Shown piece by piece: positions 4,799 through 17,668 of a stretch of DNA of 64,000 nt. Position numbers and translations under genes: made by a program. Numbering within the stretch: position 1 is the first letter of the stretch; each line of letters opens with the position of its first letter. The notes under the pieces are model-generated. The model saw only the letters and a program-made list of their open reading frames with translations. It searched no databases and was not told where the DNA came from. The stretch covers positions 1-64,000 of the forward strand of contig NZ_JQKI01000037.1 of the NCBI RefSeq assembly GCF_000745965.1. Direction: 5' to 3'. The DNA is from Edaphobacter aggregans DSM 19364 (GTDB taxonomy: Bacteria; Acidobacteriota; Terriglobia; Terriglobales; Acidobacteriaceae).

Positions 4799-5228
4799 GG
4801 CCGCTGTGCGCTGAGGCGGGTTATCGCCCAAACCTTCATTGGCGATAACAGATCAATGCGCTCAGCGAAGAGAGCCCGAGGTCATTCCAGTGGCTCCGCG
4901 AGCGCCTGTTCAGACTCAAACGATTTTGGGCCGCCGAGACTTTCCCTACGAAACTGATGTGGCGACGGAACTGTACTTGGAGGAGTACTCAACCAGAACG
5001 CGTAATACAGAAGGAAGGGAAGTGGCGCTTCGCTGCGGTTGATTCGAACGGCAAATGCGCTACTGGAAGGGCGCCAGAGTGCAAAGTTTTCGGGTACACG
5101 TTCGGGTACAGACATCAGTTCGCCCTGATTGCGGAAACTACGCTAAATTACAGATAGTAATGGGTTTAGCTAGTCCACTAATTACGCCTAGTTTCGCTTA
5201 TTTATCATAGACTTACGGGGTTCTTCAG

Positions 5229-5286
5229 AGACTTAAAATTCGCATCGAGAAATCGAGTGGGGGTTCGAGTGCCCCTCCGGGCACCA
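5229..5286 (+). other. tRNA-Leu(UAA) 3'-half remnant, candidate attachment scar
   Basis: The sequence reads as an anticodon loop CTTAAAA, a long class-II variable arm (ATCGA, loop, TCGAGT), a T-arm with TTCGAGT, and an acceptor strand TCCGGGC-A-CCA ending at 5286. No matching 5' half (a GCCCGGA acceptor strand and D-arm) precedes it, and position 61 of the T-stem is G instead of the conserved C, so it is not a working tRNA. A 3' half beginning near the anticodon loop is the usual footprint of a tyrosine integrase that targets tRNA genes. Confidence 0.55.
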
Positions 5287-5504
5287 ATACAAATAGAATC
5301 ACCTATTTGTGATGGTATTTGAGGTAGAGTTCGAGGAGCGAGTGCCCTCCCAAATGTTGACTTGATTACGCTCGATTATGTGTAATCGCAGCGGACTGCT
5401 CGGTGGCACTCGTTCGTCGCTGACCCCATTGCCCGTTCACCATCTTCTCGTGAGGCGATTGCCCACTTCGTGAGCGTTCGATGGGTCCCTGCTCCCGTTT
5501 TCTC

Positions 5505-5822
5505 TCACGAAGCACGTTTGCAATTGCTGTCCAGAGGACAATTCCATTTACCTTTGGATATTCTCGCCCAATCAAATTGGGGCCGTAAGCTCTGCGCGTT
5601 TAGCCGATACTGCCTATACCGACCGTGTTTTACGACCGTAACAATACCAACCTTGCGCAGCACTCGAAGGTGCTTGGAAGCGGTGGGTTGCGTAATTTTC
5701 ATGCGACCGACGATTTCGCTGACAGTCCAGTACTTGCCATTGTTCAGGAGTCCGATCATCTCTCGTCGCTTCGCTTCCGCGATAGCGTTGAAGACGTCGG
5801 TTGTTGTCGCTGCCCTGGCCAT
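5505..5822 (-). CDS. ArsR-family winged-helix repressor
   Basis: A 105-residue protein. Residues 8-80 form an ArsR-type winged helix: VFNAIAEAKRREMIGLL, then the recognition helix in ITQPTASKHLRVLRKVGIV, then a wing with VVKHGRYRQYRLN. The cysteine pair of metal-sensing ArsR proteins (ELCV) is absent, so it belongs to the non-metal branch that often controls SRPBCC or DinB-like genes. The C-terminal FDWARISKGKW matches the family's usual FDW-x(6)-W tail, and length is normal. The ATG at 5822 is chosen. The nearest co-directional gene is the DinB-fold gene at 6073-6555, a possible target. Confidence 0.8.
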   Translation of the reverse strand: MARAATTTDVFNAIAEAKRREMIGLLNNGKYWTVSEIVGRMKITQPTASKHLRVLRKVGIVTVVKHGRYRQYRLNAQSLRPQFDWARISKGKWNCPLDSNCKRAS

Positions 5823-6072
5823 GGGATTACGTAGCTCCAGAATTGCTCTTGAAAGATGAAGGATTGCCTTTTCTCAGGGCTCGTGGGTTGCGGCCGGTTC
5901 CATCAGTTTGGATACGAATCCTCGCCGCACTATCTTGGGGTTCAACCATCGACACTCACCCCCTCCGCGACATGAATCGAGCGGGCGGTGGCAAGCACCC
6001 TGACAGTGTCCGAAGTCCACCGCGCGAGAGATCTTTTGTTCGCTCACTGCGAGCCGGATGACCTTACTGTTG

Positions 6073-6555
6073 TTAGCGTTTTACGAGGATGGCTTGACCG
6101 AGGTGATAAGCCAGGTGTGTCGTCCGGCCCAGCAGTATCGCGTAACGGTTTCGGTGCGGCTCACGTTCAAAGTCCTCTGGTGATACTGCTTGATGCCTGT
6201 CCAGCCACTCGGCCGGTGTCAGCTTTGCAAATTCACTCCAAAGCAGATCGCCCAATTGGCTCCACATGTCGCCCATGGCCTCACCCGCGAAATTATGGGG
6301 AACAGCACGATCAGGCTGAGAGATGAAGATCAGATCCAATTCGGGATAGCGACGTTCACCGAAGCCAAGAAGCGGAATCATCCTGTCGTTGGTCGCAGAG
6401 AGGTGTCCCCAAATGTAGATCAAGCGATTCTTGCCAGGCGCGATCTCCTTTTGTAAATCGTCATCCGATAACGAACGGAAGAATCTTCCAACCCGGTCCA
6501 TATTTGAGTGCCAATTGCGAAGTGCTCCATCGATCAATGCATTTTCGGTTGCCAT
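6073..6555 (-). CDS. DinB-fold (DUF664-like) metalloprotein
   Basis: A 160-residue four-helix protein. The metal-binding histidine of the first pair is in YIWGHLSATNDRM, and the C-terminal pair is in TTHLAYHLGQAILVKR, all diagnostic of DinB-fold proteins, a family of thiol or metal-dependent enzymes of mostly unknown substrate (unrelated to polymerase DinB). I use the ATG at 6555, preceded by AAAGG, rather than a longer upstream frame whose extra 70 residues resemble no known family. The reading frame is intact. The related remnant at 1603-1775 suggests more than one such gene has passed through the locus. Confidence 0.8.
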   Translation of the reverse strand: MATENALIDGALRNWHSNMDRVGRFFRSLSDDDLQKEIAPGKNRLIYIWGHLSATNDRMIPLLGFGERRYPELDLIFISQPDRAVPHNFAGEAMGDMWSQLGDLLWSEFAKLTPAEWLDRHQAVSPEDFEREPHRNRYAILLGRTTHLAYHLGQAILVKR

Positions 6556-6933
6556 ATTCCAGATAGCCTTTCTTCGTGAGGGGTGTCGTGAACCATCAGT
6601 TGTTAGTGGAGCGCGTTGCCAAACGAGAAACATCATCACCTTTTGACCACCAGACTGAACTGGACCTTCGGTACTGAGTCGCAACGTGTTTCTCTCCAGG
6701 TGAGCAAGCCGAGGTTGTTTGTTTCCGGCCCAGGCCGGGAACAACGATACCTCCATCGGGTGCAATAGCCTCTCCTCCAGTGCTCGATGTTAGAGAGGGG
6801 GATTCGTGGTTTGGCAATTGGTGTCCGCTCAGCAGACAGGCTCCACCTCCCGAGCAATGTCTACATTGCGTATCCACCTCGGCCCGTCTTGCGATCGTCG
6901 GCTCAAGCCGGGGCGTCATTTTCCATTCCTTCT
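6556..6933. other. Non-coding stretch, nothing recognised
   Basis: Roughly 380 bases between the DinB-fold start and the TetR gene's stop. Open frames here are arginine/serine-rich and look like chance. Confidence 0.4.
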
Positions 6934-7530
6934 TTAGCCAGCCATCTCTCCATCTAATTTCTTTTGCACCTCCCGCAGTATCTCTCGTGAGAACGCTTCG
7001 TCATCGACCGCCCTGGCAAGCGAAATCGCTCCTACTAGGGTTGCTAGGGTCGCCATCGCCTCTCTGCGTTCGCCTACCATCGCTGAGATAATCTCCTTAA
7101 GATTTGCGGTGAACCTACCTTTCACTTCCGGCTCGTTCCGTATTTCGCCCGACAATGCAGCCATCGGGCACCCAGTTCCAGGCGTGTCCCTGTGCCTTAC
7201 GGTTAGATACCGATCCAGATAGGCCCGTCTTCCCTCCAGCGTTGGGAAACTTTTCTTCACGCCACGGAGTACCCCTTGCATGGCATAGTCCACTGCCGCC
7301 ACCATAAGAGCTTCCTTGGATTCAAAGTGGCTGTAGAACGCGCCGTGGGTCAGCCCCGCTTTTTTCATGACCTCGGCGACGGTCACATCTTCAAAACCGC
7401 GTTCGCGAAAGAGACGCGAGGCCTCTTGCACGATGCGGTCGTGCTTCTCGGCCGTTTCGGTTGCTGGATAGCGCAGAAAGGCCCTTTCCGCAAAAAAGAG
7501 AATCCCTTTTGCATGATCATCATCATACAT
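6934..7530 (-). CDS. TetR-family transcriptional repressor
   Basis: The TetR DNA-binding domain is clear: HDRIVQEASRLFRERGFED, then VTVAEVMKKAGLTHGAFYSHF and ESKEALMVAAV. The C-terminal ligand domain contains GTGCPMAALSGEI, a signature of a TetR subgroup that controls SDR genes in soil bacteria. The start is uncertain. The frame extends to 7578 (TTG) with ATGs at 7542 and 7530; the N-terminal 35 residues before the HTH are unusual and I chose 7530 provisionally. It is divergent from the SDR gene at 7662, so autoregulation plus control of the SDR-cupin pair is likely by inference; no clear palindrome is visible between them. Confidence 0.8.
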   Translation of the reverse strand: MYDDDHAKGILFFAERAFLRYPATETAEKHDRIVQEASRLFRERGFEDVTVAEVMKKAGLTHGAFYSHFESKEALMVAAVDYAMQGVLRGVKKSFPTLEGRRAYLDRYLTVRHRDTPGTGCPMAALSGEIRNEPEVKGRFTANLKEIISAMVGERREAMATLATLVGAISLARAVDDEAFSREILREVQKKLDGEMAG

Positions 7531-7661
7531 GACGAGCGTCATACCTGCAAGAGACGTCGTTGAACAGGCTCTGAGCAAAACGAATCTCGCGGAGCTGGTA
7601 CGCGGCGTCGGCTAGAAACTGTAACCGACACGAACATGTTTAATCCGAAGGAGCAAAGACA

Positions 7662-8423
7662 ATGGGTAGGCTAACGGACAAGAACATCCTCATCACAGGC
7701 GGCAATAGCGGAATCGGGCTGGCCGCAGCGCAGGAATTCGACCGAGAGGGTGCGCGCGTCGCCATCTGCGGCTTGAATGAGCGGTCGCTGCAGGCAGCGA
7801 AGGAGACGCTTGGAGCCGGAAGTCTCGCCGTTCGCGCGGACGTGAGCAATCTCCGCGACCTCGACACGATGTTCGCCACGATCGAGCGGGAGTTCGGGCA
7901 CCTGGACGCCGTCTTCGTAAATGCGGGTTACAGCGAGTTCCTGTTGTTCGAAGACGTGACGGAGCAAAGCTTCGACAAGGTGATAGCCGTCAATTTCAAA
8001 GGGGCTTACTTCACGATTCAAAAGGCATTGCCGCTACTCAGGGAAGGCTCGTCTGTAATCATCAATGCGTCGGTTGGCGCGCGCAAGGGGTGGCCGACAA
8101 CCTCGACCGTCTCGACCTGCAAGGCAGCAGTCGTCCATCTCGCTCACATTCTCAGCGCCGAACTCGTGGAACGCGGTATTCGCGTGAATACCCTAAGCCC
8201 GGGCCCGACGGACACGGCAATGTTCGGTCGCTTCCCAGGCGAAGAGCAGGGCGAGGCGGTTAAGGGCGTCCTCCGAGCCAACAATCCAAGCAAGCGGATG
8301 GCCGATCCGTTGGAAATCGCAAAGCTGGCAGTTTACCTCGCGTCGGACGATTCTGCGTACGTCGTTGGGGCAGACTTCTTGATCGACGGCGGGGTCACGG
8401 CCATTTCGGGCGTGGGCGCCTGA
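7662..8423 (+). CDS. Short-chain dehydrogenase/reductase lacking the catalytic Tyr
   Basis: A 253-residue classical SDR. It has the NAD(P) motif TGGNSGIG (12-19), ADVS (60-63), FVNAG (85-89), serine S137 in INAS, and the C-terminal PGPTDTAM and DFLIDGGVT. In the usual Y-x3-K active site the lysine is present (K154 in TCKAAV), but the tyrosine position is valine V150 (codon GTC), so the normal proton donor is missing. AAGGAG lies 8 nt before the ATG. It is followed by a cupin gene 50 bp downstream and faces a divergent TetR gene. Either a non-catalytic or altered SDR, or a recent inactivating change. Confidence 0.88.
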   Translation: MGRLTDKNILITGGNSGIGLAAAQEFDREGARVAICGLNERSLQAAKETLGAGSLAVRADVSNLRDLDTMFATIEREFGHLDAVFVNAGYSEFLLFEDVTEQSFDKVIAVNFKGAYFTIQKALPLLREGSSVIINASVGARKGWPTTSTVSTCKAAVVHLAHILSAELVERGIRVNTLSPGPTDTAMFGRFPGEEQGEAVKGVLRANNPSKRMADPLEIAKLAVYLASDDSAYVVGADFLIDGGVTAISGVGA

Positions 8424-8473
8424 GTCTCGTTGTAGAGAGTGGAGACTTCAACAACACGAAAGGAAACTTAAAA

Positions 8474-9034
8474 ATGAAAACGAAATCACAAGTATCCAAG
8501 AACGTGACCACGAACAACCCGGACGAGAAGAGACAGGGGATGAAGGTACGCACGGTTGTCACCGGCCATGACGCCAAGGGCCGGGCTGTTTTTGTGCGGG
8601 ACGAGCAAGTCGATGGGACGCCCATCCCTGGCTTAGGAGAGCTCGCCTTCCTCTGGAATGCCGATGAGCCCGCAACCTACCCGAACGTGGGGAACAATCC
8701 GGCGGCGCCCGGTATATTCCCACCCGTAGGTGGCATCCGCTACATCATAGGGACGTACTTGCCCGGCGTGATTGCACCAGAACCCACTCCCGAGATGCAC
8801 CTCGAGGATGGCGACGAACCCGGTGGAGCTAACGACGGCTTTCACAGGACTGACACGACGGATTTCGGGGTCCTTCTCTCCGGCAACATGGCACTCGAGC
8901 TCGACGATGGCGCGGAGGTGGTGCTGTCTCCCGGCGATGTCCTGATCGAGAACGGAACTCGGCACCGTTGGCGCGTCGTTGGGGACGTGCCGGCCACCCT
9001 GGCTTCTTTCATCATCGGAGCCCGCCGCCGTTAG
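8474..9034 (+). CDS. Cupin-domain protein
   Basis: A 186-residue protein with a C-terminal cupin barrel: FHRTDTTDFGVLLSG then MALELDDGAEVVLSPGDV, and a second motif ENGTRHRWRVVGDVPA. The histidines fit the cupin metal site; the first motif has Asp/Asp in place of the second His-Glu spacing, as in many small DUF-type cupins. AAGGAA is 9 nt before the ATG at 8474. Co-directional with the SDR, 50 bp after it, so probably one transcript under the divergent TetR. SDR-cupin pairs are common in catabolic or detoxification islands. No substrate can be assigned. Confidence 0.78.
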   Translation: MKTKSQVSKNVTTNNPDEKRQGMKVRTVVTGHDAKGRAVFVRDEQVDGTPIPGLGELAFLWNADEPATYPNVGNNPAAPGIFPPVGGIRYIIGTYLPGVIAPEPTPEMHLEDGDEPGGANDGFHRTDTTDFGVLLSGNMALELDDGAEVVLSPGDVLIENGTRHRWRVVGDVPATLASFIIGARRR

Positions 9035-9563
9035 GTTCCGGCCTGCGCGTGAGGTGGCGATTGCCATGACACGGGAGGACCCTTGTGGTTACAGGGTGGA
9101 AGCAGCTCGAGCGAAAGAGTACGCGGCGCCGACGCGGCGGCACCACAGGCAGCGGACTTGCGGCGGAGCAGGGGCTAGGCGTTCAGAGAGTCGAGGCCGT
9201 TCCTGTTCCCGCTCAGGCAAGGGATCGCACCGCCAATCCTCGTCACGCAAAAAACGTAACTAGTAAAAAGAGCTGATTCTGGTTGCGGAGGAGGAGGTAT
9301 GCGGAGACGCGGCTCTAACAACTCCGCGAGATGACCGTTGTCGTCGCTGATACAGGAGATCGAGGCGATCGAAAGCGCAAAGCCACAAAATGCAACGACC
9401 ACCCCGTCGCTTATCCCAGCGGATGCGCAACAACCGCAATATCAACCCATCGTGGACGGTGTCCTCATCGATCCGCGTTGCCCCTCGGTGCTCGCCAGCT
9501 AGTGATTGCGGCCAGAGCGTGACCAACTTTGGATTCAATCTTGAGACAACTAAGGAGAAAGAA
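9035..9563. other. Non-coding or decayed stretch, nothing recognised
   Basis: About 530 bases after the cupin gene. A plus-strand frame near 9085-9276 is basic and low in complexity. I could not link it to a known family and regard it as chance or debris. Confidence 0.35.
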
Positions 9564-11694
9564 ATGAAAATCTCGCAAACGTACCCAGCTGCTTTGATCG
9601 CAACTCACACCAACGATTCAGCGCCTCAGAGGCCCAAGTCAGCGCGCCGAGGCCTGATGCAGCGTCTCGGCGTTGCTTGAAACTGGAGTTTGTTCCTTCC
9701 TGCTGTTTCTGAAGATTTTCCTTCGCGATTGAATCTTTGGAGATTTCGGCGCTCAATTGGGATTGCAGCGTTGGGATTTCCTTCTCGATATCCAGCAATG
9801 ATGTCTCTGTGATTGTGGTCTTCACGACATCAGACAGGTTGAGACCCAATGTCTGAAAGTCTTTTACGGTTTCTTCTTGAAATTGGTCATATGCGCGCTT
9901 CAGCAGGCGGATCCGCTCTCGGATGTTTTGAATTGCCTTGATCCGCGCTGCGATAACTAACTGAGCAGCAGAATGCCGACCAGCGCGCTCATCAAGATTT
10001 GCGAGGGCATCTGAGGTCGAGTCCAGTTCGTTGGCTGCCAGAGCTTGGTCCGGACTCAGTTCATCGGTTGGTTTGGTAAGCGTTTCAGGTCGTAGCTTCT
10101 GGTGCTCTGCAATCTCCTTTATCTGAAGGCCTAGCTTCTCGTTCAGATTCTTTCTTATCTCTGGCTGTAGTTGATCCTCTATACCGGAGATGTCTTGGTT
10201 CAATCGGTTGAGCTGTTTCCTGAAGTCAGCGAGTTGGTCTCTGTAACTTCTCTCTTGCTGTTCAATTAGCTGATCAAAATCCAATGCTCCAAGCCGGATG
10301 GAGTCTCCGGCATGTGAGAAGATCACTGCCTTTAGTTCGCGTTCAAACGCATTGGACCTACCAGACACAGGTTCGTTGCAAAGCTCCTCAAAGCGACCTT
10401 GAGGGATATAGCGAACAAGTTCTACCTTCTCTGAGGGCGTGTCATCATTGAGGTTCTGGCCTCCTTCATCGCTTGAGTCGCACCAGACAAGCCTTCCAAC
10501 GAAGTGCTTTGCAGGCTCTCCCGATTTCCCCCGGAAACGCTCTTTCTTGAGAAATGTAAAATGCACCCTCTGGTGAGAATGGCCGAGCAGAGCGATAACA
10601 TCGGCAAGCGCGCTTTTCCCGCTTCCCTTATTGCCGATGATGGCGACAAGGTCAGTGTTCAGGGGCACAGAGCATCCGTCTAGCCACTTGTCAGTCAATG
10701 CACTGCCGGCAACTTTGGCGATTTCCACTTTGTCAATGAAATATCTCTTTTGTCCAGCCACCTCAAGTAGCTTGGACGGTACTTCGCCAATGAAAGTACG
10801 TGACTCTGGCTCCTTTATGGCCTGTAAGAGACCAAGAAAACTGGGGTCGGCCTTTACCCAGCAATACCGCTTTTCGTCTGGTTCAAAGAGTCTGGCAATC
10901 TCGTGAGCGTCGGAACCGTGAAAGCAAGGCTTCAGCGTCTTGTATTGGCTTTTTATGCTTGTCGCAGGAATACCCGGTTTCTGCCCAAGGTAGTGCTTCC
11001 GGTCTGAAGGGTTCCCACTAAAGATGAAGTCGGAACGGCACAGCAGTTCATCTCGAGTTGCGGCAAAGCTATCTAGCGGCAGGCCGCTGATCCCATCACT
11101 TCCATTAGCGATACCGACAACGCTGTTATCTGTTAACCATTTATCGTTTTGGAGCCATTCGAAAATGTCAGTGTGGGATGGCTTGAATTGCTCCACCCCA
11201 AGCCTATAAGCAGCCGTTTCGTCGTGCAGCGAGGGGTCTTGTTGTCTCGCAAATTGAATCAACTCCTCACGAATGCAACCATAGTCTTGCTGTTTGTACT
11301 TAAATTTCAGATTTCTAAGAGACTTCTTTAGTTTGTCAATATGGAGAGGGTCTGCAGCATTTACAAGCAAATGGATATTCAAAGCCTGACCCGTTTTGGT
11401 GTGGGGCAGGCTCCTGAATTCGATGTTGGGCAAAAGAAGGACAGATGACAATCTCGGGTGTTTCGTATCTTGCTGAAGAGCGACAAGTCTTTCATAGCCG
11501 TCGATGGACATGTAGTCTGTTATGCCTATGACGGCAATTTTGTGACGGGCCACCGCCTCCTCAAGCGCGTTTACGTAGTCGTCCCATTGCACATTTACGA
11601 ATGAGGTTCCAAGAAGACTTGCTGGTGTGTGAACATGCAAATCCCGTCGACGCCATTCTGCCCCTCGTGGCCAGATATTTGAATCTACCGTCAT
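9550..11694 (-). CDS. TrlF-type PHP domain/AAA ATPase, C-terminally truncated
   Basis: A 714-residue protein. The N-terminus is a PHP phosphoesterase-like domain: RRDLHVHTPAS (D18, H20, H22), VIGITDY (55-61) and CFHGSDAHE (257-265), which supply metal ligands. A P-loop GNKGSGKS follows at 354-361, then a long coiled coil from about 480 to 670. In full-length TrlF-like ATPases the coiled coil is followed by a second ATPase half with ABC-type signature and Walker B. Here that half is missing, and the last 40 residues after SSFKQ look unrelated, so the gene is probably truncated near 9680. It lies 47 bp after the DUF2130 gene on the same strand. Relatives occur near defence and restriction genes. 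Confidence 0.8.
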   Translation of the reverse strand: MTVDSNIWPRGAEWRRRDLHVHTPASLLGTSFVNVQWDDYVNALEEAVARHKIAVIGITDYMSIDGYERLVALQQDTKHPRLSSVLLLPNIEFRSLPHTKTGQALNIHLLVNAADPLHIDKLKKSLRNLKFKYKQQDYGCIREELIQFARQQDPSLHDETAAYRLGVEQFKPSHTDIFEWLQNDKWLTDNSVVGIANGSDGISGLPLDSFAATRDELLCRSDFIFSGNPSDRKHYLGQKPGIPATSIKSQYKTLKPCFHGSDAHEIARLFEPDEKRYCWVKADPSFLGLLQAIKEPESRTFIGEVPSKLLEVAGQKRYFIDKVEIAKVAGSALTDKWLDGCSVPLNTDLVAIIGNKGSGKSALADVIALLGHSHQRVHFTFLKKERFRGKSGEPAKHFVGRLVWCDSSDEGGQNLNDDTPSEKVELVRYIPQGRFEELCNEPVSGRSNAFERELKAVIFSHAGDSIRLGALDFDQLIEQQERSYRDQLADFRKQLNRLNQDISGIEDQLQPEIRKNLNEKLGLQIKEIAEHQKLRPETLTKPTDELSPDQALAANELDSTSDALANLDERAGRHSAAQLVIAARIKAIQNIRERIRLLKRAYDQFQEETVKDFQTLGLNLSDVVKTTITETSLLDIEKEIPTLQSQLSAEISKDSIAKENLQKQQEGTNSSFKQRRDAASGLGALTWASEALNRWCELRSKQLGTFARFSFLSP
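9564..9680 (+). CDS. 38-residue ORF with strong RBS, probably a truncated 5' gene end
   Basis: ATG at 9564 is preceded by a very good AAGGAG 8 nt upstream and encodes MKISQTYPAALIATHT, then a basic tail RPKSARRGLMQRLGVA and TGA. The gene overlaps the 3' end of the TrlF-like ATPase on the other strand. The protein similarity of that ATPase appears to stop at about 9680, so both genes may end at one recombination joint. It could be a genuine small protein, but a fragment of a lost longer gene is equally likely. Confidence 0.35.
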   Translation: MKISQTYPAALIATHTNDSAPQRPKSARRGLMQRLGVA

Positions 11695-11741
11695 CGTCTT
11701 ATTGTCCTCATTGCCCCTTACAGAAGATCCTTTGGAGCAAG

Positions 11742-13490
11742 TTAGCCTACACTCAGCGCTGAAATTCCAGGCAACTCCAAGCCTTCTATTTCGCGCAGAG
11801 ACTTGCCTGCAATTCCTTGGAGATCACCATACATCCCAACCGTTGCACCTATTACTCGCTCGATTTGTTCTTCGCGCTTCGCCCATTGCTTCATGATCGC
11901 CTTTCGTTCCTTGTCCAAGTCTTCCTGCATGGAGGAAAACGCCTCAACTATCGCCTCAACGCGTTGGCGGAAGCGTGGTCCTGTTAGATATTGGTAGACC
12001 ATCTCAGCCTTTGTTTGCTGCCCTTCGGTGATGAGTTTCGCTGTGCTCACCTGAAGGAGCGTATGGCGCAGGATGGTGGCAACAGGCAAAAGAGAGCGAG
12101 GATGTGTGATCCAAACGCCATCAATAACATCGAAGGTCTCGATGCCTTCGGGTAAGGTCTTGGAGATGAGCACGGATATATCTGCCTTGGCTGTGCGCTG
12201 ATCGTCGCGCAACTTCGGGAGCCATCCGTTACTCCAATTCTTCGTGCGCTTCGTTTCCCAAAGAATCGTGCCGCTCGTCAGGCCGCTTGAACTGATTACT
12301 CGCTGGAGCGTGTCGCCTCCGAATTCCCCCTTGGGAACAGGCTCAATTGCGTCGTATGGGAATCTGGCTCGGAGGAGATTTTCCAATTCTAGCTCCTGAA
12401 CCTCACCCTGCAACTGCTGGGAACCTTGCTCGGCCTTTTGTTTCAGCTCCTCGATCTTCTGCTGCATTGAGGCAATGGTTTGATCCTTTTCCATCACCTT
12501 GAGCCTGAGACCTTCTTCGGCTTCCCTCTTTGCCTGTGAGCGGACTTCGGTAAGGCCATCCTGTACGCGCTTCTCCACGGTCAATTCCAGCTCGCGTTTT
12601 GCGTCGTCCAACTCACGCTGCTTCTTGATTAGCTCTGCTTGCGCCTTCTGGGCTTCGGCCAGCTTTTCGTCACGCACCTTGAGAACTTCTTGTAGCTCTG
12701 TCAACTCCTGGGCTTTCGACTCAAGTTCTGCCGCACTGGCGAGCTTGGCCTTTTTCCACTCCTCATCAACCACTCGCGCTCGTTCTGTTTTGAGTTGCTC
12801 TGCCACCTGATCTGTCACTTGCTGTTCAAGCGTTCGCTTCTCTTCGAGGATCCGCTTTTCATTGTCGCGTACTGCCTGTTCACGTTGGGCTATCAGCTCG
12901 TCCTTCTGCTTGAATTCTTCGATGTTTTGTTGCATCGCGGCAATGGCTTGATCCTTTTCCATCACCTTGAGCTTGTGCCCTTCTTCGGCCTCCTGCTTTG
13001 CCTGAGAGCGGACTTCGGTAAGGCCTTCCTGTACACGCGTCTCTACGGTCAGCTCCAATTCACGTTTTGCGTCATCCAGCTCACGCTGTTTCTTGATTAG
13101 CTCGGCTTGGGCTTTCTGAGCCTCGGCGAGCTTCTCGCCGCGGGCTTTGAGAATTTCTTGAAGCTCGGTCAATTCTCGCGCTTTTGTCTCAAGTTCTGCC
13201 GCGCTGGCGAGTTTGGCCTTTTTCGACTCTTCTTCGACCACTCGCGCTCGTTCGGTTTTGAGTTGCTCCGCCACTTGATCCGCGACGTGCTGTCCAAGCA
13301 AGCGCTTCTCTTCGAGGACCTGCTTCTCCTTGTCACGCACTACCTGTTCGCGGTGGGCTATCTCCTCATCTTTCTGAGATAGTTGCTTCTCAAATTGGTG
13401 ACGAGTCGCTTCGATCAGTGGTGCGGCAAGAGATTCTGTTAACCGAATTTCGCTTCTGCATTTTGGGCAGGTAATTGTCGGTTCTGTCAT
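11742..13490 (-). CDS. DUF2130 protein: zinc ribbon, coiled coil, nuclease-like domain
   Basis: A 582-residue protein. The N-terminus has a half zinc ribbon, CPKC at 8-11. Residues about 45-355 are a charged coiled coil, and the C-terminal domain carries FPYDAIEPVPKGEFGGD, then TILWETKRTKNW and DGVWITHPR. The D (395) with E-x-K (414-416) fits a PD-(D/E)xK endonuclease core, the predicted fold of DUF2130 (COG4487). Typical members are about 430 residues; the excess is an internal 156-residue duplication of the coil. It sits between the SNF2 helicase and the PHP/ATPase in one direction, so co-expression is likely. Function in the family is unproven. Confidence 0.82.
   Translation of the reverse strand: MTEPTITCPKCRSEIRLTESLAAPLIEATRHQFEKQLSQKDEEIAHREQVVRDKEKQVLEEKRLLGQHVADQVAEQLKTERARVVEEESKKAKLASAAELETKARELTELQEILKARGEKLAEAQKAQAELIKKQRELDDAKRELELTVETRVQEGLTEVRSQAKQEAEEGHKLKVMEKDQAIAAMQQNIEEFKQKDELIAQREQAVRDNEKRILEEKRTLEQQVTDQVAEQLKTERARVVDEEWKKAKLASAAELESKAQELTELQEVLKVRDEKLAEAQKAQAELIKKQRELDDAKRELELTVEKRVQDGLTEVRSQAKREAEEGLRLKVMEKDQTIASMQQKIEELKQKAEQGSQQLQGEVQELELENLLRARFPYDAIEPVPKGEFGGDTLQRVISSSGLTSGTILWETKRTKNWSNGWLPKLRDDQRTAKADISVLISKTLPEGIETFDVIDGVWITHPRSLLPVATILRHTLLQVSTAKLITEGQQTKAEMVYQYLTGPRFRQRVEAIVEAFSSMQEDLDKERKAIMKQWAKREEQIERVIGATVGMYGDLQGIAGKSLREIEGLELPGISALSVG
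12440..13375 (-). repeat. 468-bp tandem duplication inside the DUF2130 gene
   Basis: Two adjacent, highly similar copies (about 12440-12907 and 12908-13375) with a 468-bp period, for example CTCGCGCTCGTTC at 12773 and again at 13241. The period is exactly 156 codons, so the frame is kept and the coiled coil is lengthened by one unit. Copies differ mainly at third positions and a few residues, so the duplication is not brand new. Confidence 0.85.
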
Positions 13491-13640
13491 TGGTCCCCAG
13501 TTGTCTGAAACTCTGTTATGGATGCTTTGAGTCAGTCGGAAGCTAAGAATTAGCTGGTCGTATGAGACTCTTGAGATTCACTTTATTTCCATTACTTAGC
13601 CTGTCGGGATTCCTTCAACCACTGCTGATTCGTTCATTTC

Positions 13641-15509
13641 TCATGCGAGACTCCAGCGAATGGTAAACAGCGGGGACAGCTCCTGCTGCTGTTTGAGCTT
13701 GCCTTCAATGTCCGCGATCAGCGCTTCACGCCTTGCCTCAACCTCATCCTGAGCGACGAACAGGTCTTTCCTACGCTGATTGCGTGCGACAGTGAGGTCC
13801 TTCAGTTGCCTCTGGTGCTCTAGCTTCTCCTGCAAGCCTAATGCCGCGACAGAATCACGTCGTATCTCGCGAATCTCTTTGTCCAAGTCTTTGATCTCCT
13901 GCTCCAGGCCGAACTTCAGGTCTTCCGTCCATCGGTCAAGCTTCTCGATTTCCGCATCAAGCCACTTGCCGTTACGTTCCTCAAGCTCTCGAAGTACCCG
14001 TTGCTGTTCGCTTTGAACCCCGTTGGTCAAACCATCGGGTGCTTCCAAAAGCAGCGGTTGGCCGGCTTCGGCAGTTAGATCGAAGAGGCGCTTACATGCG
14101 ACGGCGTCCATCGGCTGCCCGTTATCCAGAACGCCAGCAAGCAGGATGTGGTCTTCGGTCTCCAATCCGTTCAATGTAAAGCGAGCACTTGTGAGCCAAC
14201 CGCTGCGGACCGGCAGAGATTCCAGAAGGGCAATACGTTTGCCGCTACCGCTGAGATCGAAGCGAAGCTCAACCTTTGGCGTAGGGAGTGCGCAGCAATT
14301 GGTCAAAACCTGTTGAGCAAGGGGATGACCGATGCGGTAGGTGTTGGCTTCTTCGATCTGCTTACCCATGCGGTATGGACCTGGATGGATCGGGTGCTGC
14401 TTTTGTTCGGCTGCTGCAAACGGGTCGTGTTCCAAGTAGAAGCTGTGGCAGGAAGATTCAAACCGGGCATAGGGCGCGAGATAGAAAGCAGTTAGTCGCC
14501 AAAGCAGTTCTTCAAAGCGTCCGAGCGATTTCGCGCTGGCGACGCGAACCCGCTCGATGACCTCCTGGTCAAAGTTGTTGAGGAGCTGTTCGCTTGCGTC
14601 ACTCCGTGCCTGGCTGATCTGGGATTCAAGTTCTTTCTGCAACTGATCGAACTGAAACTCGATCTGTTCGGTCGTGCGGCACTGTTGGTAGATGCCGACG
14701 ATGCGCTTCTCGAAGTCGACACCGGACTCAATCGCTCCGATGACTTCATCGCTCGCCCCAAAGACGCCGTCGAAAAGTTTGAACTTCTCCGCAAGCAACT
14801 GATACACCCGCACGTCGGCGGCATTCGACTTGTTGAGGAAGTTGACGACTACAACGTCGTACTTCTGACCGTAGCGATGGCATCGGCCGATTCGCTGCTC
14901 GATCCGCTGGGGGTTCCACGGCATGTCGTAGTTGACGACCAGATTGCAGAACTGGAGATTGATGCCTTCGGCAGCCGCCTCCGTCGCAATCATGATGTTC
15001 GCTTGATCGCGGAAATACTCCACGAGAGCGGCGCGTTTGTCGGCGGTGGGCGAGCCGGTGATACGGTCTGTTCCGGCGTGCTGCTTCATCCAATTCTGGT
15101 AGATTTCGCGGCTGCCTGGGTCGGTGTTCGTACCATTAAAGAGAACGACCTTGCCCGCAAAGTCTGTCTTCTGTAACAGGTTGTATAGGTATTCCTGAGT
15201 CCGGCGGGACTCGGTAAAGATGATGGCTTTTTGCTGGAGGGCGCCTGTCTGTGCATCCGCTTGAACAGTTCGGGCGGCCTCAAATCCTCGGCGAAGGGCG
15301 GTGAGTAGCACCTCGCCCTTTGAATTCGTACGGATTGCCTTGGCTAGATCGTGGAATTTTCGCAGCTTTTCCTTCTCGGAGCGAAGCTCAGCGAGCTGTT
15401 CCTTGCTTAGCCTTTCGGGTACCTTTTTCTCGTCGCCGAAAGCGTCCTCCGATTCTGAACCTTCGTCATCATCAACCCACTCCTCCTGCATTTCGGGCAA
15501 GGGTCTCAA
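13641..15509 (-). CDS. SNF2-family helicase, C-terminal part (split gene)
   Basis: 622 codons read from a TTG at 15509. It contains helicase lobe 2: QQKAIIFTESRRTQEYLYN (motif IV region), then AAAEGINLQFCNLVVNYDMP (motif V) and WNPQRIEQRIGRCHRYGQ (motif VI with arginine fingers). A charged coiled-coil tail of about 100 residues closes the protein. It lacks motifs I-III, which are in the preceding frame, so alone it cannot be an ATPase. Its first codons overlap the stop of that frame by four nucleotides (TTGA). The parts would join into a SNF2 ATPase of about 970 residues by a one-nucleotide shift. A frameshift mutation, an assembly error or translational coupling are all possible. Confidence 0.75.
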   Translation of the reverse strand: MRPLPEMQEEWVDDDEGSESEDAFGDEKKVPERLSKEQLAELRSEKEKLRKFHDLAKAIRTNSKGEVLLTALRRGFEAARTVQADAQTGALQQKAIIFTESRRTQEYLYNLLQKTDFAGKVVLFNGTNTDPGSREIYQNWMKQHAGTDRITGSPTADKRAALVEYFRDQANIMIATEAAAEGINLQFCNLVVNYDMPWNPQRIEQRIGRCHRYGQKYDVVVVNFLNKSNAADVRVYQLLAEKFKLFDGVFGASDEVIGAIESGVDFEKRIVGIYQQCRTTEQIEFQFDQLQKELESQISQARSDASEQLLNNFDQEVIERVRVASAKSLGRFEELLWRLTAFYLAPYARFESSCHSFYLEHDPFAAAEQKQHPIHPGPYRMGKQIEEANTYRIGHPLAQQVLTNCCALPTPKVELRFDLSGSGKRIALLESLPVRSGWLTSARFTLNGLETEDHILLAGVLDNGQPMDAVACKRLFDLTAEAGQPLLLEAPDGLTNGVQSEQQRVLRELEERNGKWLDAEIEKLDRWTEDLKFGLEQEIKDLDKEIREIRRDSVAALGLQEKLEHQRQLKDLTVARNQRRKDLFVAQDEVEARREALIADIEGKLKQQQELSPLFTIRWSLA

Positions 15510-16561
15510 AGTCCCTCAGCCATGATGGCGACCGGTTCTGCGGCTTGGTGTTGCTCTACTTCGGCTGACTCGAGCTTGTTGGCGAGTCCGAGAAGCGTGT
15601 CGGAAATCGCATAAGTTGAGGAAGCAAGCAGTTTCCGCAAGATGAGCGTCATGAGCTGACGTTGGCTGGCAGGGAGCGCGTATAGTTTCTCGCCTTTGAG
15701 GTAATCCGAGACAAGATCGTAGAGTTCTTGCTCTGCGGGACTGGGAACGAACTCCTGCACCATCGCGTGACGGTTGGTGTACGGAACGTAGGCGAGTACC
15801 TGCCTCCTAAGCGTCCGCTGACAAATCGGACGGAGACGCTGCTTCAACGCGTCGAAGTCTGCTTTTCCGGCTAGGCGGGCAAATTGCGCCCTAAAACGTC
15901 GCAGATCGCCGAAGGTAAATTCGTCAACGATGCTGACCAAGCCATATAGCTCAAGAAGGGAGTTCTGAAGCGGAGTTGCGGTTAGCAGAAGTTTTTGATG
16001 TCCAGTGAGCGCCTGCTTGATCGCGTTCGCAACCTTGTTGCCGGGTTTGTAGACATTCCTGAGCCGGTGGGCTTCGTCTATCACGACGAGATTCCAAGGC
16101 GTTGTTCGTAGGTAGGGCTCTTTGGAACGAGCAAATTGGAACGAGCAAATGATGATCTTCGGCTGCTCGAAGGGATTTAAATTGCCCGCTCGGACGGCCT
16201 CATTGAAAGTCTTGGCTTCCAGAATGACACTAGGAAGAAAGAATTTGTCTTGTAACTCCTGGCTCCACTGTTTGCGGAGGTTTGCCGGACAGATCACCAA
16301 CAAGGTGCGCCGTCGCTCGGCCCAACGTTGCGCCAGCAAAATACCCGCCTCGATTGTCTTTCCGAGTCCAACCTCGTCGGCGAGAATCGCGCCTTTTGAG
16401 AGTGGAGAGCGGAAAGCAAAGAGAGCGGCTTCAATCTGGTGGGGATTTAGATCAACTTGAGCATCAGAAAGCGCGGATGCCAATTTGTCGACGTTGTCAG
16501 AACTGGACCGCTTCGTCAGCTCGTGGGCAAAGAGCTTGGCGTGATAGTCGGTCATGTTCAT
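15506..16561 (-). CDS. SNF2-family helicase, N-terminal part (split gene)
   Basis: 351 codons from the ATG at 16561 (MNMTDYHAKLFAHEL), with GGAGAA about 13 nt upstream; a longer TTG start at 16588 is also open. It contains motif I GAILADEVGLGKTIEAG, motif Ia TLLVICPANLRKQW, motif II VVIDEAHRLRN and motif III LLLTATPLQN. These are complete lobe-1 features of the RapA/HepA-like SNF2 group used in bacterial chromatin, transcription and defence enzymes. The frame ends in TGA just before the lobe-2 frame starts. It is the first gene of the minus-strand set SNF2, DUF2130, TrlF. Confidence 0.78.
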   Translation of the reverse strand: MNMTDYHAKLFAHELTKRSSSDNVDKLASALSDAQVDLNPHQIEAALFAFRSPLSKGAILADEVGLGKTIEAGILLAQRWAERRRTLLVICPANLRKQWSQELQDKFFLPSVILEAKTFNEAVRAGNLNPFEQPKIIICSFQFARSKEPYLRTTPWNLVVIDEAHRLRNVYKPGNKVANAIKQALTGHQKLLLTATPLQNSLLELYGLVSIVDEFTFGDLRRFRAQFARLAGKADFDALKQRLRPICQRTLRRQVLAYVPYTNRHAMVQEFVPSPAEQELYDLVSDYLKGEKLYALPASQRQLMTLILRKLLASSTYAISDTLLGLANKLESAEVEQHQAAEPVAIMAEGL

Positions 16562-17179
16562 TAGCGCTAGGGATTCTCCGTGCACCAATTTTAGAGCATT
16601 ATCTCTACGAAAGTATTGGGAACATTAGACTTTCGCTGAGACCAGGGGGAGTCAGGGCTAAATTTGAGGGAGATTTTGCGCTCTTTTGCAGGCTGAGACC
16701 TTGATCGCTGCTGCTGGGCGTCGCATTCGGAACGCCGTCGCCAACACCAAAAAGTAAAACTCTACAAGATTGATACAGGGAACCCCAGCCACTACTTGAC
16801 CACCACTGCGTGCGTCCGTTTCCCGTCCAAGGTGCCCTCCTTTGCCTGGGAACTGCTTCGTGAAATTCCCTCACCATGATCTCTGCGACTTTGTTATCTC
16901 TATCGCCGACCTTCGATCACCAAGTGCGCGGTCCGGACAATGAGCCTGTTGAGGTAGGAGATTGACCCGGCATTCCCGCGAGCCCACCAGAAGCTCTATC
17001 GCGAGGAAGCAAAGTTTAGAGCTGAGGAATCTGAGGCGAAGCAGCACTGAACGAATTGGACAACCACAAAATGAGTAGCGGAAACCGTCCGGCATCGCCG
17101 GCGGCTGGAGTGAGCGAGGAGATTTCCTCCCTTATCCCAAAAGTGAAATGATGGAACGTTGCTGAACGAGGATAAAGCG
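16562..17179. other. Divergent intergenic region, no gene recognised
   Basis: About 620 bases separate the SNF2 start and the next plus-strand gene. Frames inside are short and low in protein character. Promoters for both directions presumably lie here, but I see no convincing -35/-10 pair. Confidence 0.4.
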
Positions 17180-17668
17180 ATGAGCTGGGAGATTATGCGT
17201 TCCGAGACAGGCCCCTGCGACTGTGGAGCCGGAACGATGATTCACGTCATGGAGATGGACGACTGGAACCCGACACGGAGTTCAACCGAAATCCACTGTC
17301 CCGCATGTGAGGAAAAGCGGTCTCGGGAACTGAAAGCAGACCGGGCGCGAGAGAAGCGAAGAGATGAGCTTCTACGCAGAGCGAAGCAACTCGCAACCGA
17401 TCGTTATCTCGAAAATTGGCTGGCCCGGTTTGCAGGAATGTCGAAGAGAGCAGCCTGGGAGCGATATACCGGAGGTTCTGGCTATCCGGCGCTCGGAACT
17501 TTCTACCAGCACGTAAAGCACTCAGGCAGCCTTAGCAAGTATATGGAATGGTGCTTTCCCAACGAACTAGAGAAGTCGCTGCGCATCCTCGGCGTTGAAG
17601 ACAAGGAAATCGAAGCCCTGCTCAAAGAGCATTCCCGGCTCTGGAGACCAACGAGCAAATCCCTATAG
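17180..17668 (+). CDS. Hypothetical protein with zinc-ribbon-like N-terminus
   Basis: A 162-residue protein not recognised. The N-terminal part has C-x-C (GPCDCGAG, residues about 11-15) and C-x2-C (HCPACEEK) about 30 residues apart, spacing that could hold one zinc. A basic helical segment follows (RAREKRRDELLRRAKQLA), then ENWLARFAGMSKRAAWERY, resembling an HTH-like helix pair, and a C-terminal helix ending in KEHSRLWRP. GAGGAT lies 8 nt before the ATG at 17180. It is transcribed away from the SNF2/DUF2130/TrlF set and may be a DNA-binding accessory or an unrelated island gene. It appears intact. Confidence 0.6.
   Translation: MSWEIMRSETGPCDCGAGTMIHVMEMDDWNPTRSSTEIHCPACEEKRSRELKADRAREKRRDELLRRAKQLATDRYLENWLARFAGMSKRAAWERYTGGSGYPALGTFYQHVKHSGSLSKYMEWCFPNELEKSLRILGVEDKEIEALLKEHSRLWRPTSKSL

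Follow-up and report, generated by a model that had tools for sequence, protein, structure and literature searches.

Type I and type III restriction-modification (R-M) loci carry toxin-like genes, and AIPR proteins have been linked to R-M (PMC3506569; this and the other papers are cited here from excerpts). In the Shield system, a coiled-coil RmuC nuclease stands beside a type I R-M system (PMC10270631; PMC11090510), and SNF2 helicases are known together with methyltransferases in BREX-related and ARMADA systems (PMC12839542; PMC12458937). The Temperature Restricting Locus of Photorhabdus is a three-gene operon (trlG, trlF and trlR) that arrests growth at 36 degrees, whose trlF is a large gene annotated as histidinol phosphatase (a PHP protein) and which in one plasmid encloses small type I R-M methyltransferase genes (PMC7554251); the NCBI TrlF family is presumably named after this gene. 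Here we describe a locus of Edaphobacter aggregans DSM 19364 in which genes for a RapA-like SNF2 protein, a DUF2130 protein and a TrlF-type ATPase follow one another. It lies within the first 64,000 nucleotides of contig NZ_JQKI01000037.1, the whole stretch analysed and hereafter the window (G000:C30:1-64000, from the 8.18 Mb draft genome G000). The locus is probably what decay has left of a restriction operon of five genes, in the order SNF2, DUF2130, TrlF, Mod and Res, whose mode of action we infer.

Four minus-strand open reading frames (ORFs) of the window form three genes in the order SNF2, DUF2130 and TrlF (Table 1). An earlier reading of this DNA, made from the letters without database searches (the sequence-only reading), had described three co-directional genes here, which ORFs and Pfam/NCBIfam profile matches confirmed, and had proposed them as a defence module of their own. 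A search of 60 genomes of the same genus with the DNA of the window's upstream flank led to two relatives, G221 and G214. In G221 (locus L315) the operon is intact, encoding SNF2 (971 aa), DUF2130 (589 aa), TrlF (1025 aa), Mod (561 aa) and Res (897 aa) in this order, with consecutive ORFs overlapping by 1, 4, 11 and 4 bases as judged from mechanically called starts, and with 75-78% DNA identity to window positions 9696-16561. In PADLOC its Mod matches MTase_III (698 bits) and its Res REase_III (781 bits), the sole match of the latter at E <= 1e-20. In G214 (L312) the order is SNF2 (980 aa), DUF2130 (430 aa), an 884-aa PDC-S06-type ATPase, Mod (562 aa) and Res (901 aa), and in L348, from a genome of another family of the class (G271), SNF2 is followed by a 209-aa protein, AbiEii, DUF2130, a 224-aa protein, PDC-S06, Mod and Res. 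The proposed trio is thus adjacent and intact in G221, but there it opens a type III-like operon of five genes, in which DUF2130 and TrlF appear as exchangeable accessories and not as core.

A census of SNF2 loci extends this picture. Loci were drawn from 80 genome-contig matches, 80 viral matches (L161-L201 used) and the phylum, genus and class genomes; 142 distinct loci scored above 600 bits in our own profile, and the 107 with at least 4.5 kb downstream were kept (35 dropped). Left out were the viral loci L202-L240 (39 in all, with identities no higher than 31%) and the duplicate contig G252:C18, equal to G320:C21 (L340); both contigs have 42,456 bases and the same SNF2 place and score, probably through cross-binning. 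A Mod-like gene follows SNF2 within 9 kb in 93 of the 107 loci and is lacking in 14. Among the 93, 54 have a short Mod, joined by Res in 52, while in the other 39 the match to the Mod profile is weaker; L176, scanned from among these, is type III by its PADLOC scores (MTase_III 1128 bits, REase_III 1538 bits). Between SNF2 and the short Mod, 37 of 54 loci hold at least one extra gene on the same strand. All loci with any Mod yielded 79 proteins from this slot, 62 of which were scanned (7 TrlF/DUF2130 proteins and 10 others, mostly short, were set apart); their Pfam families include SMC_N (15), AIPR (7), AAA_13, SLFN_AlbA_2, HATPase_c_4 and DUF4276 (4 each), with Abi_2, AbiEii, a kinase and ThsA_Macro among the singletons. 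On a plasmid of Deinococcus sp. KNUC1210, for example, SNF2 is followed by AIPR, three small genes, a methyltransferase and a helicase. Slot content varies even between close relatives. SNF2 thus belongs to a core of type III-like genes that encloses an exchangeable slot. TrlG-like proteins combining AlbA_2 and HATPase_c_4 (L066 3598-5094 and others) occupy the same slot as TrlF.

The window's SNF2 gene had been recognised as lying in two frames, and the Pfam domains agree, with SNF2-rel_dom in the N-terminal and Helicase_C in the C-terminal part; the two ORFs overlap by 4 bases. Because five relatives encode SNF2 as one protein of 938-1156 aa, a frameshift at about 15.50-15.52 kb accounts for the split. 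The window SNF2 shares a group in the SNF2 tree with those of L312 (G214), L315 (G221) and L334 (G484) at a support of 1.0, apart from L347/L348, L083, L165 and L138, some deep nodes being poorly supported (0.14 for the node joining L165).

TrlF is damaged as well. The sequence-only reading saw a PHP domain fused to an SMC-like ATPase; membership of the TrlF family holds (NF045780, 365.1 bits; cut-off 350), but the protein is truncated near 9672 and its ATPase is incomplete, the match covering only positions 1-614 of the 944 of the profile. Homology stops at about 9672-9685, short of the end of the called ORF (9550-11694, minus strand), and Walker A is present while the alignment shows the ABC signature and Walker B of relatives to be absent. 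The ORF also runs over 81 bases (9591-9671) that share 95% identity with the chromosome of G230 (G230:C4). The cut faces the side on which Mod follows in G221, and tblastn with the Mod of L315 or the Res of L083 gave no match in the window; the Res of L065 gave one weak match, on the N-terminal part of SNF2 (E 0.003). A search of G000 for Mod returned only weak methyltransferases, the best with 33.5 bits. The decay of two members claimed earlier is therefore real, and the DUF2130 ORF is intact. With SNF2 split, TrlF cut, and Mod and Res lost, the system is most likely dead in the window, in line with the suspicion of the sequence-only reading that the module might be inactive, although DUF2130 might still act on its own. 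Ratios of dN to dS against G221 were 0.043 for the SNF2 N-terminal part, 0.051 for DUF2130 and 0.071 for TrlF, with dS near saturation and not computable for the SNF2 C-terminal part. These low values suggest that the genes were under purifying selection for most of the divergence, so that the decay looks recent.

DUF2130 is a member of an apparently unstudied family that resembles DNA-cutting enzymes. The window protein exceeds the PF09903 cut-off by far (265.5 against 26.7 bits). Of the zinc ribbon attributed to it, a single conserved C-x-x-C pair was found, whereas the D...E-x-K nuclease-like core stood up well, both in its residues and in structural comparison. The AlphaFold2 model has a mean pLDDT of 75 and a pTM of 0.34, with pLDDT about 90 across most of the C-terminal core, which in the model runs in the order alpha-beta-beta-beta-alpha-beta and bears E412-x-K414 on a strand. 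VIA-align 2 placed VC1899 at the top (Z 9.8, rmsd 3.0, 114 residues aligned), then McrBC (Z 9.7), Cdn1 (9.6) and Hjc (9.1), with Bax1 and a cyclic-oligoadenylate DNA nuclease ranked behind these; we take all six to be PD-(D/E)XK enzymes. Among 32 distinct DUF2130 copies above 120 bits and 300 aa, a count to which the distant subfamily of L255/L256 does not contribute, E366 and D393 are kept in 32 of 32, E412 in 30 (one D, one gap) and K414 in 31 (one gap). The core, as modelled, thus folds like PD-(D/E)XK nucleases and keeps D393 and E412-x-K414. PADLOC has no family matching DUF2130, and a sequence search of the PDB with the G221 protein gave nothing at E <= 0.1.

For TrlF, the best relatives of the window protein among those compared, itself excluded, were those of the SNF2-linked loci L083 and L138. 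The model of the L083 protein has an SMC/Rad50/RecN-like head in structural comparison (best Z 16.9, rmsd 21.1, 411 residues aligned; next match Z 16.1, rmsd 4.1, 261 aligned), and sequence searches of the PDB returned just weak ABC-ATPase matches. H23, H25, D69, E100, D279 and H281, presumably the metal ligands of the PHP domain, are invariant in 13 sequences.

Both accessories occur in the slot of several loci. Three of the 54 short-Mod loci (L083, L165 and L315) have TrlF there, and in L138 it immediately precedes SNF2. A TrlF-type ATPase part follows Res in L063, and in L109 one lies some 7 kb downstream from SNF2; DUF2130 occupies the slot in 4 of 54 (L312, L315, L347 and L348). Among 299 genomes of the class, 24 encode SNF2 at E <= 1e-100, with DUF2130 downstream in four (G000, G214, G264 and G271) and some of the other loci short, and 14 encode TrlF at E <= 1e-60, within 20 kb of SNF2 in three (G000; G418, 10.6 kb; G435, 18 kb). 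By chance, a rough density estimate would give 0.013 DUF2130 and 0.014-0.017 TrlF genes across the 107 loci, the density being that of 199 genomes of one phylum with an assumed mean of 4.1 Mb, applied to many phyla. In the DUF2130 tree the copies of L347/L348 group with type I, type III and viral copies (0.96) and not with the window clade. Such separate placement in the SNF2 and DUF2130 trees suggests that TrlF and DUF2130 each probably joined these operons more than once.

Outside SNF2 operons, DUF2130 and TrlF loci were scanned with 15 reference proteins only, so that other defence genes would be missed. Seven of the 11 DUF2130 copies above cut-off in the phylum adjoin R-M, Cmr, Gabija or SNF2 genes: besides the window copy, three neighbour type I systems, one a type III-like system (weak matches of 72 and 70 bits), one a Cmr locus and one Gabija. 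The genus search added nine places, two of which adjoin such systems (G221 and G214), G223:C4 giving a weak GajA match (66-67 bits). Of 18 viral TrlF loci, one is an SNF2 case and another has a weak SNF2 match. In G000 itself, L255 (G000:C41:500-20499, 4940-10514) carries GajA (893 bits), GajB (827 bits) and a distant DUF2130 gene in this order. The Aliarcobacter butzleri plasmid NZ_CP104379.1 (L367) carries DUF2130, an ATP-dependent endonuclease, a UvrD helicase, a methyltransferase, RhuM and a DEAD helicase, its GajA- and GajB-like genes after DUF2130 scoring 218 and 110 bits. In L261 (G122:C33, 9005-10243) DUF2130 stands directly upstream of a Cmr-type CRISPR locus with Cas10/Cmr2 recognised by Pfam, and a 349-aa gene between the two has no Pfam match.

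Several observations weigh against the five-gene restriction operon as we read it, besides the near-saturated dS and the one-phylum density noted above. Co-localisation of the three families recurs in G221, but no locus other than this and the window showed the exact trio; L312 and L315, reached by way of window DNA, are not an unbiased sample, and the association was counted in one direction, from SNF2 to Mod. DUF2130 within an SNF2 operon was seen in a single bacterial class, phmmer at E <= 1e-10 finding none near SNF2 outside it among the 80 genome-contig and 80 viral loci, some of them short. Of five DUF2130 plasmid regions one (Aliarcobacter) has a defence neighbour, that of G223 has one weak GajA match only and three have none, and none of the reference proteins lies near DUF2130 in 16 of 16 viral loci, some of them near-duplicates. 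TrlF is mostly solitary, with type I-like genes in 1 of 10 stretches of the phylum. Foldseek alone gave no PDB match to the DUF2130 model at E <= 0.001 (best E 0.015). In Photorhabdus, growth arrest was traced to TrlG, since the mutations that lift it were found in trlG and none in trlF, whose role the paper leaves open in the excerpt cited (PMC7554251).

Four other explanations were weighed. That SNF2, DUF2130 and TrlF form a self-contained defence module, Mod and Res of the relatives being a separate neighbour, would fit the contiguity of the trio in the window and in G221, but we set it aside as improbable because G221 shows Mod and Res; there the ORFs of TrlF and Mod share 11 bases and those of Mod and Res 4, 93 of 107 SNF2 loci have Mod downstream regardless of the genes between, and the TrlF of the window is truncated on the side that, by the order of G221, faces Mod. 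Nor does the label given to SNF2 by current models decide for DISARM. DrmD is indeed its best model in NCBIfam and PADLOC, but the window halves score 309 and 331 bits and three intact relatives 685-695, none reaching the curated cut-off of 950, and the partners scanned in the Mod and Res positions of L065, L315/L332, L083 (Res only) and L176 match MTase_III and REase_III, which makes a DISARM-related system with SNF2 as DrmD very improbable, and membership was set aside.

A stronger competitor, although still rather unlikely, is that the accessories have no functional link to SNF2, Mod and Res and are mobile defence genes that came to lie beside them, as passengers, in a defence island. TrlF and DUF2130 do often occur alone and slot content does differ among close relatives; however, the accessories lie within the operon, flanked by SNF2 and Mod, share its orientation and have overlapping ORFs, and they probably entered more than once against a rough chance expectation of about 0.01-0.02. 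The decay itself could be an artefact of assembly or binning of a fragmented genome, since the draft comprises 345 contigs with a contamination of 7.21 and past selection on the genes was strong, but we give this a small chance only, as 81 bases on the junction side match chromosomal sequence of G230 and G000 has no Mod relative above 33.5 bits.

Under the five-gene operon that we favour, Mod would methylate host sites and, together with Res, recognise unmodified foreign DNA, which would be cut after ATP-driven motion as in type III R-M, while the RapA-like SNF2 might be a third core component, moving along DNA or clearing proteins off it. The slot genes could serve as second-line effectors restrained by the core: DUF2130 as a coiled-coil PD-(D/E)XK DNase, and TrlF as an SMC/Rad50-like ATPase whose PHP domain would cut nucleic acid once the ATPase senses DNA ends or stalled translocation, a logic modelled on the anticodon nuclease PrrC beside its R-M system. 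More tentatively, and with somewhat less than even confidence, DUF2130 could be an undescribed general-purpose PD-(D/E)XK effector nuclease repeatedly plugged into type I and III R-M, Gabija and Cmr loci. The clade of RapA-like SNF2 proteins, at present assigned to DISARM, could then mark a type III class of its own with three components, whose exchangeable slot recruits TrlF, TrlG-like AlbA_2/HATPase proteins and DUF2130, TrlF and DUF2130 more than once.

Table 1. Features of the locus in the window (positions count from the first base of the window).
Feature	Coordinates	Strand	Basis
SNF2 N-terminal part (first RecA-like domain), broken gene	15506..16588	minus	Pfam SNF2-rel_dom 6.4e-36; 87.7% identity to G221 SNF2 residues 1-350
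SNF2 C-terminal part (Helicase_C and C-terminal region), other frame	13641..15509	minus	Helicase_C 2.8e-21; 82% identity to G221 SNF2 residues 355-970
Site of the frameshift splitting SNF2	15500..15515	minus	tblastn frame change between 15515 and 15500; single ORF in relatives
150-base segment between SNF2 and DUF2130	13491..13640	none	Missing in G221 and G214, whose ORFs overlap at this point
DUF2130 gene, intact ORF: N-terminal C-x-x-C, long coiled coil, PD-(D/E)XK-like C-terminal core	11742..13490	minus	PF09903 E 5.5e-79; 84% identity to G221 protein
DUF2130 core of PD-(D/E)XK-like fold, approximately residues 357-482 (E366, D393, E412-x-K414)	12045..12422	minus	AlphaFold2 model, structure comparison, residue counts
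TrlF-type protein: PHP domain, Walker A, part of coiled coil; ends before ABC signature and Walker B	9672..11694	minus	NF045780 profile 1-614 of 944; 80% identity to G221 TrlF residues 4-677, to 9685
Chimeric tail of the TrlF ORF, chromosomal sequence marking the junction	9550..9671	none	9591-9671 95% identical to G230:C4

The tRNA scars that the sequence-only reading placed around the locus find no support, since no tRNA or tmRNA was detected in the 64-kb window and Rfam gave zero matches at E <= 0.5 within bases 1-30000. The short sequence at 9502-9671 also occurs in G208, G243, G155, G230 and G000:C149, with two copies near contig ends in G230, and may be a repeat or an insertion target. 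Beside the island, a 169-aa ORF (17159-17668) has a relative at G000:C26:36166-36690, which adjoins a second TrlF gene of G000 (G000:C26:37770-40610). Further genes were noticed at L315 7935-8964 and L317 2015-3068: upstream of SNF2 in G221, Pfam recognises a nucleotidyltransferase/HTH gene and a HEPN-like gene; look-alikes were seen, by eye only, in G213, and tblastn found no trace of either in the window. In L312 and L314 (G214:C11 and G147:C45) SNF2 is preceded by a gene of about 1040 aa, which resembles a TrwC-type relaxase, and the SNF2 operon of these loci may travel on a conjugative element.

Taken together, the data offer a testable role for DUF2130 and for the TrlF ATPase family, so far known from a growth-arrest operon, and suggest that a type III restriction layout with SNF2 is widespread, current models filing this SNF2 under DISARM. 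The slot could serve as a natural catalogue of effectors, making its unknown proteins candidates for defence, and the decayed window copy beside intact sister copies illustrates the loss of such operons. Toxin-like genes and AIPR in R-M operons, SNF2 with methyltransferases and the Shield nuclease are already known. In the literature searched (open-licence papers only, most judged from listings) we found no named system of exactly this make-up, as the sequence-only reading had also stated, no paper on SNF2 as a partner of type III Mod and Res, and no study of DUF2130 in defence, the papers containing the word DUF2130 all being on other subjects by their titles and the start of their abstracts.

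Among described systems, PrrC and RloC share with this locus an ABC/Rad50-like ATPase effector encoded with an R-M system (PMC3506569), but here R-M is type III-like with SNF2, and in place of anticodon nucleases the putative effectors are DUF2130 and the PHP protein TrlF. ShdA of Shield is described in the excerpts as membrane-bound with an RmuC domain (PMC10270631; PMC11090510), whereas the window DUF2130 has no RmuC match in Pfam at E <= 0.1. Gabija has no match at the window locus; the likeness lies in DUF2130 itself, which follows GajA-GajB in G000:C41 and precedes GajA- and GajB-like genes in the Aliarcobacter plasmid. DISARM, ARMADA and BREX-related (BR) systems share an SNF2-type helicase and an adenine methyltransferase, but DISARM and ARMADA use YprA-family helicases and BR a DUF499 ATPase where the partner here is, by the PADLOC match in G221, a type III Res (PMC12458937; PMC12839542). 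The R-M operons with MORC/GHKL proteins, in which AIPR is common, likewise use an SNF2 helicase or a type III-type helicase; according to the part of the source cited, however, they are centred on a MORC ATPase and the two helicases are alternatives, whereas here they are partners (PMC2292703). Photorhabdus TrlG combines AlbA_2 and HATPase_c_4, families that also occur in the slot (4 of 62 proteins each), which ties TrlG and TrlF to this kind of locus, although the excerpt describes no SNF2, Mod, Res or DUF2130 at the trl locus (PMC7554251). With type III R-M the intact operon of G221 shares Mod and Res (MTase_III 698 bits, REase_III 781 bits), and from it the operon differs in the SNF2 gene that precedes Mod and in the exchangeable slot between them, the window copy being without Mod and Res.

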